Below the pieces are notes generated by a model. It saw only the letters and a list, made by a program, of their open reading frames with translations, did not search any database and was not told the origin of the DNA. From positions 1 to 13,799 of the forward strand of contig DJVD01000003.1 in NCBI GenBank assembly GCA_002440805.1: 13,799 nucleotides of DNA. The letters run 5' to 3'. Positions within the stretch are counted from its first letter, which is position 1. The number at the start of each line of letters is the position of its first letter. A program made the translations under genes and the position numbers. The stretch comes from Chloroflexi bacterium UBA6265. GTDB taxonomy: Bacteria > Chloroflexota > Chloroflexia > Thermomicrobiales > UBA6265. Positions 1-8,903 of this stretch are shown here, in pieces.

Positions 1-18
1 CGTATGCAGGAAACAGGC

Positions 19-543
19 ATGAGCACACCTCCTCCCAATCGCAGCCGCGCCCTGGCGCTGAGCAATATCCTGTTCGCCCTGATGGTAGTGGCGGCCGGGG
101 GGGTGGCGTACCTGTATTTTGTGGAGGACCAGTTCTTTCAGGAAGGGCCCAAGCCGCCCGCCTGCGAGCAGGGTCGCAACGAGTTGATCTGCGTCATTGA
201 GGCCCTGAAAGCCCAGGACTTCGATCGCGTCGAGCCGGGTCGGTACACGGCCACGGCCAACCAGCTATCGCAACCGGGCCAGGTGATCGAAATCAATGAA
301 ATAAACGCGTTCCTCTTCATCTATCCCGATGCAACCGGCAATAAGGCCGTTGCCGCCCGCGAGGCGGATGCCGCCGACCTGGATCCGGAGACGCTGCAGG
401 TGACAGCACGGATTTCCGAGCGGCCACTGAATGAGGGCGAAGAGATCACGGTTTATCAGCAGAGTAACGTTATCCTTATCGTGATTGGCGGCAGCGATAA
501 TGAACTCGCCAGTATCAAAGCCGCCATGGACACCCTTCCGTAA
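19..543 (+). CDS. Membrane-anchored protein of unknown function, upstream of the TlpA-like gene
   Basis: I do not recognise the family. The 174-residue product has a short Pro/Arg-rich cytoplasmic start, one hydrophobic segment at about residues 12-34, and an extracytoplasmic domain of about 140 residues. Two cysteines (C49 and C58) lie just outside the membrane. The C-terminal part alternates short beta-like stretches (QVIEINEINAFLFIY, ILIVIGG) and ends with a helix. The ATG at 19 was chosen over the in-frame ATG at 4 because AGGA at 9-12 sits 6 nt before it, and 4 lies at the window edge with no visible ribosome site. The TAA is 15 nt upstream of the thioredoxin gene, so the two are probably co-transcribed. 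The cysteine pair makes a redox-linked or complex-forming role conceivable, but that is inference. Upstream operon partners may lie outside the window. Confidence 0.75.
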   Translation: MSTPPPNRSRALALSNILFALMVVAAGGVAYLYFVEDQFFQEGPKPPACEQGRNELICVIEALKAQDFDRVEPGRYTATANQLSQPGQVIEINEINAFLFIYPDATGNKAVAAREADAADLDPETLQVTARISERPLNEGEEITVYQQSNVILIVIGGSDNELASIKAAMDTLP

Positions 544-558
544 ACAGGACGAACCCCA

Positions 559-1305
559 ATGTCATCCGGGCACCCTACCCCACCTCCAGCCGACGAATCC
601 GATCTACACCTTGCCGAGCCAACGCTGGCCGATACCGATGACGACCAGGAAGATCGCGGCCGTATCGGCTACGGCAAGAACGAGCGCACATCCAGCTGGA
701 TGTTGGGAGGCGTGCTGATCCTGGTGGTGCTGGCGCTGGGCGTTTACCAGTGGACGCGTGGCGGTGACGATGCAGATACCGACAACAACGGCGGCTCCAC
801 CTCCGTCGATGTACCTGCGGTCGGCAAACAGGCACCCGATTTCACGCTCACCACCTTTAGTGGCGAGGACATCACCCTGAGCGAGCAAGAAGGCAAGGTA
901 GTGGTCGTCAACTTCTGGGGCAGCTGGTGTGAGCCATGCAAGCGCGAGATGCCGGCGTTCCAGTCCTACTGGGAATCGGCGCCCGCCGATGTGGTGCTGA
1001 TCGGCGTGGGTGGCAAGCAAGATCCCGAAGACCGTTCACGCGCGTTTGCCGAAGGGTTCGGCATCACCTACCCCATCGGCCGCGATTCCGGTGGCGATGG
1101 CGTGGCATCGGGCAGTATCGCCACGGATTACACGGTGACCTTCTATCCCATGACCTACATCATCAGCCCCAACGGCGTTGTGAGCTCGCTGGTGATCGGC
1201 GAAATGGATGAGAACGACCTGAAGAGCTATGTGCAGAAAGCTCGGGACGACGCCAGCGAGGCGCCATCAACGCCGCAGGCGTTCCAGAGCCGCCGCGAGC
1301 ACTAA
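559..1305 (+). CDS. Membrane-tethered TlpA/ResA-family thiol-disulfide oxidoreductase
   Basis: The 248-residue protein has a long acidic, Pro-rich cytoplasmic N-terminus (1-46), one transmembrane anchor (about 48-64), an Asp/Gly linker, and a thioredoxin-fold domain from about residue 85. It begins with the GKQAPDF motif typical of AhpC/TSA/TlpA proteins. The redox site is WCEPC, with C124 and C127 inside FWGSWCEPCKREMP. The presumed cis-proline is in FYPMTYII near residue 200. Family knowledge: TlpA and ResA reduce or shuttle disulfides outside the membrane, often for cytochrome c maturation, copper-site assembly or stress resistance. No cytochrome genes are visible here, so the exact partner is unknown. 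The ATG at 559 has CAGGA about 10 nt upstream. The gene follows its membrane-protein neighbour by 15 nt and ends before a hairpin shared with the converging DUF305 operon. The family call is firm; the physiological role is not. Confidence 0.93.
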   Translation: MSSGHPTPPPADESDLHLAEPTLADTDDDQEDRGRIGYGKNERTSSWMLGGVLILVVLALGVYQWTRGGDDADTDNNGGSTSVDVPAVGKQAPDFTLTTFSGEDITLSEQEGKVVVVNFWGSWCEPCKREMPAFQSYWESAPADVVLIGVGGKQDPEDRSRAFAEGFGITYPIGRDSGGDGVASGSIATDYTVTFYPMTYIISPNGVVSSLVIGEMDENDLKSYVQKARDDASEAPSTPQAFQSRREH

Positions 1306-1315
1306 ACCGGCATAC

Positions 1316-1347
1316 GAAACGGGGAAGGCGCAAGCCCTCCCCGTTTC
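1316..1347. terminator. Hairpin between convergent genes, likely bidirectional terminator
   Basis: GAAACGGGGAAGG pairs with CCTCCCCGTTTC, with one bulged A and a short GC-rich loop. It starts 11 nt after the TAA of the TlpA-like gene and lies 21 nt beyond the stop of the converging DUF305 gene. A short T-run inside the 3' arm (GTTTC) is the only U-tract, so termination efficiency is uncertain. Confidence 0.6.
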
Positions 1348-1367
1348 TGCTAGTTTGAAACCGAGAC

Positions 1368-2132
1368 CTAGATGAGATCCTTGCGGATCTCCAGGAGCTC
1401 CTTGATTTCGGCCTGCTGGGCGTCAATGACGTCCTGGCAGATTTCCTTGAGTTCCTCGTGCTCGGCCAGCTGCAGGCCAACCCAGCTCTGGTGTACAGCC
1501 ATCATGTGGTGCGGGATCACGAGATCGATGAAGCTGAGGTCTTTGTCCTCGGCGTTTTCAAACTCGGCCACCAGCGCCTCGCCATCCATCATGGCCATAT
1601 CCATGTCCATCATGTTCATGCCGGTGTCCATGCCCATCATGTCCATCATGTCCTTGATGTCCATATCCATGCCCATCATGCCCATACCCATGTCATGATC
1701 GCCACAGGCGGCCATGGCTTCGGTATCGCCCATGGTGACCATCATCATCTCGTGGGTGAGTTCGTCTGGCTCATCGCTGCCATACCACTCCAGGCGGAGG
1801 GCCTTCAGGGCTTCGATTTCGCCCGGCTGGGTATCGAGGATCGCCTGGGCGATAGTGAGCAGGCGCTCATCTTCCAGCACATCCTGGGCAGCCGTGGCGA
1901 GATCAATAACGCTGGCATGATGCGGGATCATGGTGTCGATATAGGCCTGGTCGAACGGGATATCGGATTCATACGGCACGACTTGCGGCGTGCCATCCAT
2001 CATGTGGCAATCCGGCGTGGCCACGGGCGTTGAACCATGGTGAGCGCCGTGATCTTGCGCGAGCGCGGTGGCCGGGACGATGGCGCCAGCACCGATGAGT
2101 GCCATGAGGTGTCGTCGATTGAGGGTAGTCAT
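1368..2132 (-). CDS. Exported DUF305 protein with two PHH half-domains and a Met-rich linker
   Basis: The 254-residue protein begins with an export signal containing twin arginines (NRRHLM, then a hydrophobic stretch ending ATALA-Q), so Tat or Sec export is likely. The mature part has a His/Met-containing N-terminus. A first DUF305 half follows at about 55-128 (IDTMIPHH, H71-H72) and a second at about 188-254 (IDLVIPHH, H208-H209, then AEHEELKE). Between the halves, residues 148-182 hold 18 Met with Asp and Gly as the main other residues. DUF305 proteins form ferritin-like helical bundles, and some (CopM of Synechocystis) bind copper; Met-rich and His-rich stretches are common Cu(I)/Ag(I) ligands. 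A copper-binding role is therefore plausible but unproven. The ATG at 2132 has AGGA 9 nt upstream. The gene lies 24 nt after the stop of a second DUF305 gene, the likely operon partner and paralogue. Confidence 0.92.
   Translation of the reverse strand: MTTLNRRHLMALIGAGAIVPATALAQDHGAHHGSTPVATPDCHMMDGTPQVVPYESDIPFDQAYIDTMIPHHASVIDLATAAQDVLEDERLLTIAQAILDTQPGEIEALKALRLEWYGSDEPDELTHEMMMVTMGDTEAMAACGDHDMGMGMMGMDMDIKDMMDMMGMDTGMNMMDMDMAMMDGEALVAEFENAEDKDLSFIDLVIPHHMMAVHQSWVGLQLAEHEELKEICQDVIDAQQAEIKELLEIRKDLI
1587..1691 (-). repeat. Low-complexity Met/Asp/Gly coding repeat inside the DUF305 gene
   Basis: The plus strand shows imperfect tandem units built on CATCATGTCC and CCATGCCCAT, with 6- and 9-bp periodicity. 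In the minus-strand gene these are ATG-GAC, ATG-GGC and ATG-ATG codon runs encoding residues 148-182 (18 Met in 35). The frame is kept open throughout, so this is a protein-level repeat, probably grown by slippage, rather than an intergenic element. Confidence 0.8.
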
Positions 2133-2156
2133 TGGGTGTCCTTTCAGAACAATTGG

Positions 2157-2825
2157 CTAGTAGCGGTTGATAAGTTCGCCGCGAACTTCCTTCAGTGTTT
2201 TGATGTGGGGCTCGGAAGCATCAATCATCCGTTGACTGAACTCCTTGAGTTCATCATGCTCGGCCACCTGCACACTGACCATATGCTGGTGGTGCTCCAT
2301 CTCCATTACCAACACCAACATGCTGACGAAGGCAAGGAGCGGATCGTCGTTCTTTTTCCAGGTTTCCTCAACCCACTCAACATCCATGAAGTCGATATGG
2401 GATTGATCGGTGCAGCTTTCGAGGCCACCCATGGAAAGGAGCATCATCTCGTGCGTGGCCTTGTCGGGCTCCGCCGATTCGAACCACTCCTCGCGGAAGG
2501 CCTTGAGATCTTCGATGTCTTTCGGGTGGCTCTCGAGAATCGCATCCACGATCTCGGTCAGGCGTTCATCCTCAAGATCGTCCTTGTTCAGCTCGGCGAG
2601 TTTGAGGGCGCTTTGATGGTAGGGAATGGTGGTATCGATAAACGCCCGGTCAAAGGGAATATCGGATTCGACCTCGATAATTTCCGGCGTGCCAACAACG
2701 GCACCACAGGAAAGGAGCGGACGGCCGGGTGCGCCAATGCGGAACGATGTGGCACTGGTGGAAGCGGCGGCAAGGGCGGCAATGCCGGAAAGCGCGATGA
2801 TCGATCGACGCGAGTACGTGTTCAT
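2157..2825 (-). CDS. Exported, degenerate DUF305 paralogue
   Basis: The 222-residue product has a twin-arginine-type signal (SRRSIIALSG plus an Ala-rich stretch). It aligns along its length with the downstream DUF305 protein: DIPFDRAFID, LEDERL, AILESHP, THEMML and AEHDELKE are shared. It lacks the Met-rich linker. The family's His motif is altered in both halves. The first PHH is PYH (68-70). In a gapless alignment the second PHH becomes LVM (172-174), followed directly by a Glu/His cluster, EMEHHQH (175-181). It is thus a diverged duplicate with a possibly different metal site, or a structural partner without one. The ATG at 2823-2825 lacks a strong Shine-Dalgarno sequence (AAAG and CACC only), which suggests translational coupling or modest expression. 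It follows the small exported-protein gene by 56 nt and precedes its paralogue by 24 nt. Confidence 0.88.
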   Translation of the reverse strand: MNTYSRRSIIALSGIAALAAASTSATSFRIGAPGRPLLSCGAVVGTPEIIEVESDIPFDRAFIDTTIPYHQSALKLAELNKDDLEDERLTEIVDAILESHPKDIEDLKAFREEWFESAEPDKATHEMMLLSMGGLESCTDQSHIDFMDVEWVEETWKKNDDPLLAFVSMLVLVMEMEHHQHMVSVQVAEHDELKEFSQRMIDASEPHIKTLKEVRGELINRY

Positions 2826-2881
2826 GGTGGGGTGCTTTCTGAAACAAGAACGCTATCGGCCAACAAATGGAGGCTTGGCGA

Positions 2882-3226
2882 TCAATTCAGAAATACCTGT
2901 AACCACGCCCTGCGGGTTGAGGAATCCTCCCCGAACGTATCTGGCCGTGGTGTTGTGATCGCGGTCGTATCGGTGGTCGGCAAAACACCGACGTGCCCGG
3001 TAGCGGCGGGGGCGTGATCGAACAACGGACCAGAAACGGAGTGGGGCATCCCCTCGGTGTTGCCGCACACCTGAATCTTCACCACATCATGATGGGGGGT
3101 TTCGGCGACAGCGCTGGCCGGATTGATGGCCATCATGGCATCGTGACCGAGCACAAACGCAATTACCACGGCGGCAATGCGCACCATGATCATCGCTTTT
3201 GTAACACGTGGTTTATGCCCGTTCAT
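2882..3226 (-). CDS. Small exported protein, family not recognised
   Basis: The 114-residue product has a basic start (MNGHKPRVTK) and a hydrophobic segment at about 12-28 with four Met in or near it. A likely signal-peptidase site follows around ASAVAE-T. The mature part is about 75 residues with several His, one Cys (in IQVCGN) and a Thr/Pro-rich stretch (TTDTTAITTPRP). I recognise no domain. The gene looks real because GGAGG lies 4 nt before the ATG, because the signal peptide is convincing, and because it sits first in a tight run with two exported DUF305 genes. It could be a periplasmic or secreted metal-related accessory protein, but that rests only on its neighbours. The C-terminal 30 residues look unstructured and the true end could differ if there is a sequencing error. 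Confidence 0.6.
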   Translation of the reverse strand: MNGHKPRVTKAMIMVRIAAVVIAFVLGHDAMMAINPASAVAETPHHDVVKIQVCGNTEGMPHSVSGPLFDHAPAATGHVGVLPTTDTTAITTPRPDTFGEDSSTRRAWLQVFLN

Positions 3227-3271
3227 CCGCCCTCCGAGAGATTCAGATCAATGCTAGCACAACGAAGGCGG

Positions 3272-3811
3272 TTATCTGTCGGGGTTTCCCTGCGCAAATT
3301 GGTTCAGCCAGCCTGCCAGTTCGGTGGGCCCGGCTTCCAGGTAGGAGGGCATCACCAACGCCCGATCGCGCACGATCATGCTGTTTGCCTTGTGCATCAC
3401 TTTGGCAGCTGTGGTTTGCTGGCCCATATGCGCATCCCAGGCCGATTCGGTGAGGTTCAACGAAACAGATGGAGGGGATTTGGCAGGGGCAAACACACTC
3501 ACGCTGACAACATCACTCCATGGAACGGACACGCCATTGATCAGGGTGATGCCGTGTCGATCGATAATGATCGATTTGCCACCATATTGCTTCACCACAA
3601 AGGCAATGCATACCGCAATGAGCAGCCCAAAGCCGACCGCAGCGAGCGTAAGCCCACGTTGGCCAATATCACCACTTTGGTAGCGTGCATAGATGAAGAA
3701 CGCGACCAGCGCTACGGCAACGCCGACGCGCCACAACAGGCTACCGAAGCTCGAGGAAATGGTGACCCTGCCCTGCTCTTCCAGTTCTGTTTGCCAGGCC
3801 TGCTGGTTCAC
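3272..3811 (-). CDS. Two-helix membrane protein with a C-terminal PH-like region, hypothetical
   Basis: From a GTG at 3811 the product has 179 residues: a short polar N-terminus, two transmembrane helices (about 25-42 and 54-73), and a soluble domain. That domain contains IIIDRHGITLINGVSVPWSDV, the beta-strand pattern seen in small bacterial PH-like/STM3941-type membrane proteins. This resemblance is by eye only. AAGGAG lies 9 nt before the GTG. A TTG at 3829 preceded by GGGAGG is a close alternative (185 residues). A longer reading from GTG 3901 adds an Arg-rich stretch with no ribosome site. Its 3' end lies 45 nt before the small exported-protein gene. It follows the NTF2-like gene after about 150 nt in which I see no gene. 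Function is unknown. Confidence 0.72.
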   Translation of the reverse strand: MNQQAWQTELEEQGRVTISSSFGSLLWRVGVAVALVAFFIYARYQSGDIGQRGLTLAAVGFGLLIAVCIAFVVKQYGGKSIIIDRHGITLINGVSVPWSDVVSVSVFAPAKSPPSVSLNLTESAWDAHMGQQTTAAKVMHKANSMIVRDRALVMPSYLEAGPTELAGWLNQFAQGNPDR

Positions 3812-3963
3812 CGTGATGTTCTCCTTCAATGCCTGTTTCCTCCCTGTAGCAATTGGTTCGCACCGCACCAATCGCCCAAGGCGAGGAGCAAGCCTGCACA
3901 CCGCTCATCGCGCAGAGCAGCCTTCCTGACGACGCAGGAGATCGATAATTTGTTCCCGGGGAA

Positions 3964-4368
3964 TCAGGAGGCTGGCATGGGGAAGCCGGCTTCGGGCAAG
4001 GCACCTTCGGGCACCAGGCCCATTTTCGTGACGGCCTCACCGACATCGGCATAGCGGGAAATGCTGGAGATTTTGTCGTCAGTAAAGCCAAAGGCAATCG
4101 CCCATATCGCTGAATCAGTGGCATCGCCAGTTTGGGGCGAATGCCACACCACTTCGACTTCCACCACGGCCAGGTCTTCCGCACCGAACCAGCGCCGGGG
4201 CGTCATGGTGGTTGTGGCGCGATCGATCCATTCCAGCAACAACAGGGTGCCATCTTCCTTGCGGCCGTTGTAGCGCACATCGTCGGCAAGGGTATCCAGC
4301 AACTGGTCGCGCTCGCGGGAATTGAAATGATCGAGGAATCGCTGCGCGAGGGGCTGCGGTGATGTCAT
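3964..4368 (-). CDS. NTF2-like / SnoaL-like family protein
   Basis: The 134-residue protein fits the NTF2-like fold. An N-terminal helix (LAQRFLDHFNSRERDQLLDTLADDVRYNG) is followed by an ED-rich turn and several beta strands (VEVEVVWHSP, AIWAIAFGFTDDKISSISRYADVGEA). The 'D-x-I-x-S-I-x-R-Y-x-D' ending is characteristic of SnoaL-like domains. Members range from small enzymes to ligand-binding or association domains, so no reaction can be assigned. Trp and hydrophobic residues (W47, W60, W75) could line the pocket. The ATG at 4368 has AGGA about 12 nt upstream, weaker than most neighbours. The gene is divergent from the beta-propeller gene across 132 nt and may head the minus-strand run that continues to 1368. 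Confidence 0.82.
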   Translation of the reverse strand: MTSPQPLAQRFLDHFNSRERDQLLDTLADDVRYNGRKEDGTLLLLEWIDRATTTMTPRRWFGAEDLAVVEVEVVWHSPQTGDATDSAIWAIAFGFTDDKISSISRYADVGEAVTKMGLVPEGALPEAGFPMPAS

Positions 4369-4402
4369 GGTGAGGAGAAGTCCTTTCGGGTCGCCGCCGT
4401 AC

Positions 4403-4438
4403 TTCCGGCATGAATGCTAGTGTACCGCGCAGCCGGAA
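4403..4438. promoter_or_regulatory. Inverted repeat in a divergent intergenic region
   Basis: TTCCGGC (4403-4409) is repeated in inverted form as GCCGGAA (4432-4438) with 22 nt between. It lies in the 132-nt gap between the divergent NTF2-like and beta-propeller genes, where both promoters should be. I cannot define clear -35/-10 boxes. It may be an operator for a dimeric regulator, or chance in GC-rich DNA. Confidence 0.25.
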
Positions 4439-4500
4439 CCGCACGTATCCGCCGCCCGTTATGGGGATATGGGAATGACGAGCGTAGCAGAGAAAACCAC

Positions 4501-7317: not shown

Positions 7318-7986
7318 TCACATGGCGTTGAAAGGTTGTGGCCACCCGTCGGGCGAATCCTCGCCTTTTTCCTGCATACCATAGGGTGTCATGCGGAGCA
7401 TGCCATTCACCGGCATGGTGAACTCCACTGCGAAATCGTTGGTCTTGAACGCGCGGTAGATGGTGTTATCGTCGCCGCGAAAGAACACGCTTACGCCGGG
7501 GAAATCACCAAAATCGTTGTTGATCACGCCCATCTCTTCGCTGAAGGCAGTAGGTGCCGAATACCAGGGGGTCGGGATACCCTTCTCCTCCTTCCAGGCC
7601 TTCAGCTTTTCGTAGGGTGCCCGGCTGGTGAGAATATAGCGGGTGTCGCGATCGCCAAGTTGAAGATTGATGCCCGCCCCCTGCTGGAGGGCGTAATTGG
7701 TGCAATGTGGGCATGCTTGCGGCCAGTCCGGGGCAAACATGAAGTGGTACACCACCAGTTGCCTGGCGCCCTGGAAAAGATCGGCGAACGATTGCTCACC
7801 ATCTTCGCCAACAAAGGTGTACTCGCCTTCCACAGGCGTCATCGGCAAGCGACGGCGAGCCGCCGCTACTGCCAGAACCTGCTCTTTCAGGGCATCTTCT
7901 GCCTGCTTTTCTGCCTGGAGGGCAGCATTCCACGCTTTGCGATCGACAATCGGTGGCATTGGAATCGATGTGTGTTTGGCAGTCAT
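7318..7986 (-). CDS. DUF899 family thioredoxin-fold protein (second of a tandem pair)
   Basis: The 222-residue protein matches the DUF899 pattern. An N-terminal helix containing AAARRRLPMTPV (41-52) is followed by a YTF-x-G-x-DG strand, then RQLVVYHFMFAPDW (75-88). The CXXC site is CPHC (92-95), followed by RDTRYILTSRAPYEKL, PTPWYS and a C-terminal LRMTPYGMQ...DGWPQPF. The family is thioredoxin/peroxiredoxin-like and mostly uncharacterised; thiol redox chemistry in the cytoplasm is the likely role, since I see no signal peptide. ATG 7986 was chosen because AGGAG lies 8 nt upstream and because it gives exact register with the paralogue; a longer frame to 8058 overlaps the upstream gene. The upstream paralogue ends 22 nt before this start, so they are co-transcribed. 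Confidence 0.88.
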   Translation of the reverse strand: MTAKHTSIPMPPIVDRKAWNAALQAEKQAEDALKEQVLAVAAARRRLPMTPVEGEYTFVGEDGEQSFADLFQGARQLVVYHFMFAPDWPQACPHCTNYALQQGAGINLQLGDRDTRYILTSRAPYEKLKAWKEEKGIPTPWYSAPTAFSEEMGVINNDFGDFPGVSVFFRGDDNTIYRAFKTNDFAVEFTMPVNGMLRMTPYGMQEKGEDSPDGWPQPFNAM

Positions 7987-8008
7987 TATCGTGCTCCTCA
8001 CGTTCTCG

Positions 8009-8674
8009 CTAATACTGTTCGTCGAACGATTGTGGCCAGCCGTGCGGGGAATCGTCACCGTTCACCTGCATGCCGTACGGCGTCAGGTGGAGGATCAAAT
8101 CGCCCGTAACCGGGGGCTCACCGGATGAACCTGGACGATACGCGCGATAGATGGCGGTATCGTCACGAAAGAACGTGGTGAACCCTGGCACGTCGCCAAA
8201 GCTATTGTTCACCGCTTCCATTTCCTCGCTGAAGGCCGTGGAGCATGAATACCAGGGTGTTTGGATGCCGTTGCTGGCTGCGTGCTTGGCCAGCTTGCTG
8301 TATGGGGCGCGGCTAACAAGTACGAACCGGGTATCTCGCTCTCCAATATATGCGTCAAACGTGCTGCCGAGTTCATTCATATACCGCGTGCACGATGGAC
8401 AACCGTGGTCCCAGTCGGGCCCGAACATGAAATGGTACGCCACCAGTTGTCGCTTGCCGTCAAATACATCGGCAAACGCCACGTCGCCATCGGAACCGGT
8501 AAACGTGTAATTGCCTTGCACCGGCGTCATCGGCAGCCGACGCCGGGCCGCAGCTACCTTTTTCGACTGTTCGGCCAGATCATTCTCCAGGTGGTGTTGC
8601 TCGGCCAGCGCCTGGTGCCACACTGAATGTTCCACCACGGGTGGCATGGCCGTTCCGGTGTTTTCCCCACTCAT
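8009..8674 (-). CDS. DUF899 family thioredoxin-fold protein (first of a tandem pair)
   Basis: The 221-residue protein is colinear with the downstream DUF899 gene: KVAAARRRLPMTPV (39-52), RQLVAYHFMFGPDW (75-88), CPSC at 92-95, then RDTRFVLVSRAPYSKL, TPWYS and LTPYGMQ. CPSC is the usual DUF899 redox motif, so this copy looks the more canonical. A cytoplasmic thiol reductase or peroxidase-like role is inferred from the fold; the family has no firm biochemical assignment that I know of. ATG 8674 has AGGAG 8 nt upstream and matches the start of its paralogue. An extended frame to ATG 8773 adds 33 residues without family similarity. It heads a two-gene unit. The leader upstream holds an 8-bp inverted repeat. 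Confidence 0.9.
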   Translation of the reverse strand: MSGENTGTAMPPVVEHSVWHQALAEQHHLENDLAEQSKKVAAARRRLPMTPVQGNYTFTGSDGDVAFADVFDGKRQLVAYHFMFGPDWDHGCPSCTRYMNELGSTFDAYIGERDTRFVLVSRAPYSKLAKHAASNGIQTPWYSCSTAFSEEMEAVNNSFGDVPGFTTFFRDDTAIYRAYRPGSSGEPPVTGDLILHLTPYGMQVNGDDSPHGWPQSFDEQY

Positions 8675-8719
8675 GCTGTCACTCCTGATGGTTCCACTCG
8701 CCGTCGCGTGTTTCGCTGC

Positions 8720-8772
8720 TGGCAATTTCACTCTATCTTGTGACCGGGTTACCGGCTTCTCAATAATTGCCA
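8720..8772. promoter_or_regulatory. Long-spaced 8-bp inverted repeat upstream of the DUF899 pair
   Basis: TGGCAATT (8720-8727) and AATTGCCA (8765-8772) are perfect inverted copies separated by 37 nt, 46-98 nt upstream of the chosen DUF899 start. Between them lies CCGG-GTTA-CCGG. The rest of the 288-nt gap (8675-8962) holds no gene I can support. The arrangement suits paired operator half-sites or a structured leader. I found no convincing -35/-10 pair. Confidence 0.35.
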
Positions 8773-8903
8773 TTCAAACTTCCCGGGAGCATACCGATGG
8801 TTGCCCGCTTGCGCGGGTTTGGCCTTCCCCTTCTCCAGGAATGTGAAGGCAACAGCGTCTGCAAACATCCGGCGAACAGGCAGCGTAAATGGAGAAAACG
8901 GCA

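Follow-up and report, generated by a model that had tools for sequence, protein, structure and literature searches.

DUF305 proteins continue to be classified under a domain whose function is unknown. Among solved structures in which the ligand is known, those most closely related to the protein considered here are the metallochaperone CopM of Synechocystis sp. PCC 6803 (PDB 5fej, 5ffa, 5ffc-5ffe) and the protein of PDB 7vw1, which carry copper or silver. In CopM a Met-rich loop joins the two halves of the protein, and a peptide of this linker has already been studied as a Cu(II) site, according to passages of PMC11836926. Outside the family, Met-rich segments able to bind Cu(I)/Ag(I) are described for PcoE (passages of PMC4335983) and for Ctr1, with its Mets motif MxMxxM (PMC9117721). 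Here we examine the Met-rich linker of a DUF305 protein, DUF305-A, encoded at 1368..2132 on the minus strand of contig DJVD01000003.1 (assembly GCA_002440805.1, 73% complete) of the Thermomicrobiales member Chloroflexi bacterium UBA6265, together with a small leader-like open reading frame (ORF) that heads its operon. The window denotes the whole stretch of DNA that was analysed, which is the entire contig of 13,799 nucleotides. NCBI assigns this order to the phylum Thermomicrobiota, and it is elsewhere placed in Chloroflexota. The linker may be likened to the segments of PcoE and Ctr1, a likeness in Met content rather than a demonstrated sequence relation; the window segment joins two bundle halves and is not enriched in MxM.

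DUF305-A is a CopM-like ORF of 254 amino acids with a single match to PF03713 (DUF305) over residues 61-248 (E = 2.3e-24; 86.7 bits against a curated cut-off of 27), and both homology and a structural model (m3a08c3aecaad) point to a four-helix bundle as in CopM. The first helical half (residues 60-117, 1782..1955; all DUF305-A features lie on the minus strand) was modelled with a predicted local distance difference test score (pLDDT) of 94-99 in ten-residue blocks and carries a PHH motif at residues 70-72 (1917..1925) within M68-I-P-H71-H72, the MxxHH pattern named for CopM in passages of PMC11836926, while the second half in the same model (residues 197-253, 1374..1544) carries PHH at residues 207-209 (1506..1514). 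A putative N-terminal export signal with a twin-arginine-like NRRHLM start (2055..2132), judged by eye from sequence and alignment, indicates that the protein is probably exported to the outside of the membrane; a His-rich arm follows this NRR-type N terminus. Between the halves, codons 148-182 match positions 1587..1691 exactly and encode MGMGMMGMDMDIKDMMDMMGMDTGMNMMDMDMAMM, in which 18 of the 35 residues are Met, 7 are Asp and 5 are Gly. The CopM linker peptide, GMMGMHQGHGMMAMD (passages of PMC11836926), contains two His, whereas the 35 residues of the window linker contain none. When the whole protein, with its 30 Met, was shuffled, no more than 14 Met fell within any 35 residues and none of 20,000 trials reached 18; taking instead the Met rate of seven other window proteins (80/2525, 3.2%), the binomial probability for any one stretch comes to about 3e-18. 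The initial annotation, made from the letters alone, had reported a DUF305 protein with two PHH halves separated by 18 Met interleaved with Asp and Gly, and had likened this segment to Met-rich segments of exported proteins; the codon count and the domain match confirm the former, and export is borne out as probable.

A Cys in the arm and a Cys in the linker region occur together in 43 of 44 aligned relatives, the remaining one having the arm Cys only, and the linker-region Cys lies before the start of the Met stretch in 38 and after that start in 5. In DUF305-A these are Cys42 and Cys143, the latter at the start of the linker (1704..1706), and because the pair occurs together so regularly, a disulfide between them could pin the arm to the loop. 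On the opposite strand, a 191-codon open frame (1458-2033, plus strand) runs antisense to the linker; it is His-rich because ATG reads CAT on that strand, is probably not a gene, and was set aside as a mirror image of the ATG codons.

The initial annotation had proposed comparing linker length and Met content across homologues, and this comparison places the window linker at the far end of a common feature. Our DUF305 sample comprised 248 sequences (207 proteins and 41 ORFs from loci) and is skewed to the window's order and to relatives found with our queries, the third protein search supplying the best 120 of 3685; with 27 sequences lacking a recognisable HH-motif pair and 11 repeat segments removed, 210 distinct inter-half segments were kept. 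The maximum number of Met per 35 residues had a median of 8 among these segments, reached 16-18 in six proteins, all from the window clade, and was at most 14 in the other 204. A Met-rich loop at the inter-half site is the usual state in this sample, and the window linker is its extreme. A published list of Pfam families in which low-complexity segments rich in Met are over-represented among PDB proteins also includes DUF305 (passages of PMC7004392); PMC4520260 was rejected as a DUF305 source, its passages concerning DUF3050. What is new is the degree of Met enrichment rather than the idea of a Met-rich DUF305 loop, since such a loop is already usual in the family and the CopM linker peptide has already been studied. 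Loops elsewhere in the family are worded differently: the linker of P0012, 37 residues long, is composed differently (Met, Asp, His), and P0081, P0088, P0110, P0117 and P0141 carry Met-rich loops with other wording. Precomputed domain lists show DUF305 fused with a cupredoxin-like domain in P0141 and with a Spy/CpxP-like domain in P0090.

In a tree of 44 relatives, built with the linker excluded and rooted at midpoint, the six proteins with long linkers cluster together (support 90/91). Across these relatives the linker ranges from 9 to 39 residues and from 1 to 18 Met; lengths near the long-linker group are mostly 14-22 residues, and more distant rows mostly 9-12. All members of the expanded clade have linkers of 38-39 residues, so that the variation in length expected earlier is seen among the 44 relatives but not inside the clade. 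The neighbourhood is kept in the same-genus genomes G058 and G059, where the linkers measure 21 and 9 residues, and a third genome of the genus (G060, 72% complete) has one DUF305 match. This pattern suggests a lineage-specific enlargement of the linker, in which growth rather than loss is inferred because the root was set at midpoint. Met positions within the linker are retained at 0.88, compared with 0.61 for its other residues and 0.85 for the bundle (column permutation p = 0.009), a moderate rather than strong sign of selection because Met has one codon and is common in the linker.

We regard the linker finding as real and a copper reading as likely, and the connection to Cu(I)/Ag(I) drawn in the initial annotation appears plausible. 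With somewhat better than even confidence, we propose more specifically that DUF305-A is a CopM-type copper protein whose enlarged Met-rich linker gathers Cu(I)/Ag(I) for the bundle site. In this mechanism, the two helix-pair halves would pack into a four-helix bundle enclosing an MxxHH-type site, the chemistry of this site being taken from CopM, and the flexible linker, its loop kept soluble by Asp, would offer many weak, exchangeable thioether ligands to Cu(I) or Ag(I) outside the membrane. The linker would gather the ion and then pass it to the bundle site or hold it alongside. Since it differs greatly in length between relatives, the inter-half loop offers natural variants of length and Met content with which to ask if more Cu(I) is bound or transferred when a Met-rich arm is present. 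Gene context adds a copper association: in G059 the same gene order runs past the ResA-like gene next to DUF305-A to a CsoR-type regulator (PF02583 E 1.6e-28; NCBIfam RicR 98.5 bits, below the cut-off of 175), and the genes on contig C33 of the window's genome are arranged in a matching order that includes a CsoR-type gene as well as a metal P-type ATPase with a His-rich N terminus and a CPH motif, presumably that of a copper or silver pump.

Several observations weigh against this proposal. The second half of DUF305-A reads V205-x-x-H208-H209, with Val205 aligned to the position at which CopM has the Met of its second MxxHH, and the protein scores 51.1 bits with the CopM equivalog model NF049983, short of the cut-off of 90. 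CopM itself binds about one Cu per monomer despite 23 Met (passages of PMC4335983), and its linker peptide is a weaker Cu(II) ligand than the MxxHH peptide, requiring two His (passages of PMC11836926). We looked in the linker for a tuned MxM or MxxM spacing and found none: MxM is not enriched (p 0.25), only P0003 among the six clade members reaches p 0.02, and MM pairs are rarer than chance. Loops of 9-10 residues occur in relatives whose bundle sequence is kept, and the conservation test favours Met partly through its high frequency in the stretch. With regard to context, no further gene on the window contig is clearly related to copper, C33 can only be presumed to continue it, and G059 has no ATPase at the position of the C33 ATPase.

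The same linker could also have arisen by near-neutral low-complexity growth, in which ATG-rich insertions are tolerated because the loop lies clear of the bundle, the abundance of Met being functionless in itself. The wide range of linker lengths among relatives, imperfect repeats detected in the linker by Tandem Repeats Finder and clear tandem repeats in other DUF305 loops (such as that of P0110) are consistent with such growth. The initial annotation had likewise noted a codon-level tandem pattern and suggested expansion by slippage. Imperfect arrays are indeed seen in the linker DNA, but the pattern is weak: the Tandem Repeats Finder score was matched by 22/300 synonymous resamplings and 25/300 codon-order shuffles, and the ungapped self-match score by 34% of 2000 synonymous resamplings and 21% of 2000 codon-order shuffles. 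Slippage finds no support here, because the repeat signal in the DNA does not clearly exceed what the amino-acid composition would produce. The same lack of excess counts against neutral growth, as do the better retention of Met than of neighbouring linker residues, the constant length within the clade and the prevalence of Met-rich loops in the family sample, and we consider this explanation unlikely.

Less probable still is an oxidant sink, in which exposed Met would be sacrificed to peroxide or hypochlorite and re-reduced by methionine sulfoxide reductase (Msr), with the ResA-like protein as electron source. The Met residues are exposed on a probably exported protein, a ResA/TlpA-like gene lies next door, and an MsrB-like match with an MsrA C-terminal fragment was found at the start of contig C27; these Msr genes, however, sit on another contig, MsrP was not found over its cut-off in this 73% complete genome (best 60.2 of 207 bits), and copper or silver, as noted, is the ligand carried by CopM and 7vw1. 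Equally improbable is a purely structural, metal-free role as short amphipathic Met-rich helices capping the bundle or forming a dimer contact, for which the short helices modelled at 157-165 and 174-181 and the description of a related DUF305 protein as dimeric (7vw0, 7vw1) speak, while the pLDDT of just 56-69 in that region, the frequent M-D and M-G alternation, which is odd for a helix surface, and the alignment of relatives' bundles straight through without the linker speak against it.

For the leader at the head of the operon, the closest described systems are the DUF2946 proteins Rhodobacter CutF and Bordetella CruR, which exert their effect as nascent chains before leaving the ribosome. 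In both, a Cys motif located 45 residues ahead of a Pro-Pro motif at the C terminus senses copper, in response to which the copper gene that follows is turned up in the case of CutF and down in the case of CruR (passages of PMC9973294 and PMC9426467). The window leader (2882..3226, minus strand) is an ORF of 114 amino acids with a hydrophobic N terminus, HDAMMA, HH, a single Cys (Cys54, 3065..3067, 61 residues from the C terminus) and the end RRAWLQVFLN (2885..2914). It has no Pfam match up to E 1, and the NCBIfam scan of leaders gave no meaningful match; a literature search for the end motif returned nothing beyond a plant gene-silencing topic.

By comparing related leaders, we identified a near-constant distance between a Cys and the C-terminal motif. 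In the first nine leaders compared, a Cys lies 49-53 residues from the motif Arg in 9/9, while the interval from HD to that Cys, read by eye, varies from 24 to 53 residues and the spacer sequences can scarcely be aligned. Scanning 4166 ORF ends (from partly overlapping loci) yielded 14 distinct motif proteins, 13 of which directly precede DUF305, an adjacency that arises partly by selection because the loci were fetched for DUF305 or leader homology; the remaining one, in the distant genome G279, precedes a multicopper oxidase (PF07732 E 5.3e-47). A Cys stands 58-63 residues from the C terminus in 14/14, a regularity reached by at most 9/14 in 20,000 trials of random placement, and with one leader per genus the distance is kept in 10/10 against at most 7 by random placement.

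A profile of the 14 leaders searched over 158 genomes of the class found 23 places in 21 genomes (E <= 0.01): 13 were already known, seven were verified with the end motif or a near form, and three were dropped from the count of 21 leaders (L112, masked; L117 and L118, lacking the C-terminal motif). Four of the seven added leaders precede DUF305, one a YceI-like gene (L114, G008) and one, at a distance of about 300 nucleotides (nt), a sortase (L111, G060), with the last running off its contig. In six of the seven a Cys is located 57-63 residues from the end; in L110 the distance is 78, and the downstream DUF305 frame there is lost after the first motif. In total, 17/21 leaders precede DUF305 and one a multicopper oxidase, and 20/21 have a Cys 57-63 residues from the C terminus. 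Leaders with the RRALLQVF[LR]N-type end lie at window 2882-3226, L025, L027, L035, L036, L038, L040, L043, L047, L053, L054, L095, L109-L111 and L113-L116. An earlier profile of nine leaders matched 2/400 genomes of the phylum, the window's own and G279, with scoring limited to ten candidates in each genome listed; leaders are therefore either uncommon beyond the order or escaped this search. At L111 a cytochrome c assembly gene is also present, and in G042 an ORF resembling, by eye, a multicopper oxidase precedes the leader.

The leaders resemble CutF and CruR in their small size, their hydrophobic N terminus, their place upstream of copper genes and a Cys at near-constant distance from a conserved C-terminal motif. 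They differ in ending in RRALLQVF[LR]N without Pro-Pro or RAPP, and the next gene is usually DUF305; most have a single Cys, in place of the CXXC or CXXXC at fixed spacing that defines CutF/CruR. The G279 leader (L095) comes closer, with CGGC at 74-77 from the end and another Cys at 58, directly upstream of the multicopper oxidase as in the CutF-CutO gene arrangement. Membership of DUF2946 was rejected, since the PF11162 cut-off of 23.7 bits was reached in 0/61 genomes; the window leader gave no match and the best leader relative 14.4 bits (E 0.064). Because the published CutF search required Pro-Pro in the last 15 residues (passages of PMC9973294), it would filter out the leader motif, and DUF305 is absent from the main text of PMC9973294 and PMC9426467.

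In CutF a stem-loop hides the ribosome-binding site of the next gene, and folding predictions for the leaders were compared with this plan. With start codons assumed, the Shine-Dalgarno (SD) region pairs with leader codons in 7/9 minimum-energy folds, and for the window the prediction is that the ribosome-binding region of the next gene, DUF305-B, pairs with the final codons of the leader, which is suggestive only. In a synonymous-recoding control over nine loci, leader-codon pairing showed a modest excess (Fisher p 0.044) and total SD pairing none (p 0.34); fold stability was ordinary in four of five stretches (z -1.9 to 0.5) and -3.1 in one. Because the motif differs, the DUF2946 cut-off was missed, the pairing excess is modest and fold stability is mostly ordinary, we treat the leader as a candidate for, not a member of, the CutF/CruR type.

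The leader is nevertheless the stronger novelty of the operon compared with the linker. We tentatively suggest, at somewhat less than even confidence, that in Thermomicrobiales and related bacteria the operon works as a unit responding to copper, in which a new, Pro-Pro-free class of leader senses copper and opens the DUF305 start, and in which the DUF305 protein of one lineage bears a Met-saturated 39-residue Cu(I)-capture arm. The leader, with its Cys about 60 residues before the RRALLQVF[LR]N end, would sense copper outside the membrane while on the ribosome, its pausing would open the hidden start site of the DUF305 genes, and the induced product would in one lineage have gained the capture arm. 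If confirmed, the leaders would give DUF305 genes a link to copper that does not depend on CopM and would extend copper-sensing nascent chains to a new end motif.

The leader ORF is followed after 56 nt by DUF305-B (2157..2825, minus strand; PF03713 E 9.4e-9), and DUF305-B after 24 nt by DUF305-A; DUF305-A is probably expressed together with both. DUF305-B is a divergent paralogue without the long linker: the canonical first PHH is lost, the first motif reading PYH, its second half contains EMEHHQHM, the Cys of arm and linker characteristic of the subfamily are kept, and the linker is short. A promoter scan of positions 1-4500 gave a single weak match, inside the linker, against a shuffle mean of 2.0. 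Past DUF305-A, a terminator-like stem-loop (1322..1342, minus strand) is a weak consensus match (4 such matches in the region against a shuffle mean of 3.3) and separates it from the convergent ResA/TlpA-like thiol-disulfide oxidoreductase (559..1305, plus strand; PF00578 E 8.3e-24; NF002854 99.3 bits, below the cut-off of 170). Adjoining the ResA-like gene in all three genomes is a protein whose N-terminal segment is hydrophobic and which reaches no Pfam cut-off (window 4-543, plus strand; L035 10243-10815; L036 11198-11779). Further along the window, two adjacent and similar proteins on the minus strand (7318-8058 and 8009-8773) have no NCBIfam match, and we take them to resemble DUF899.
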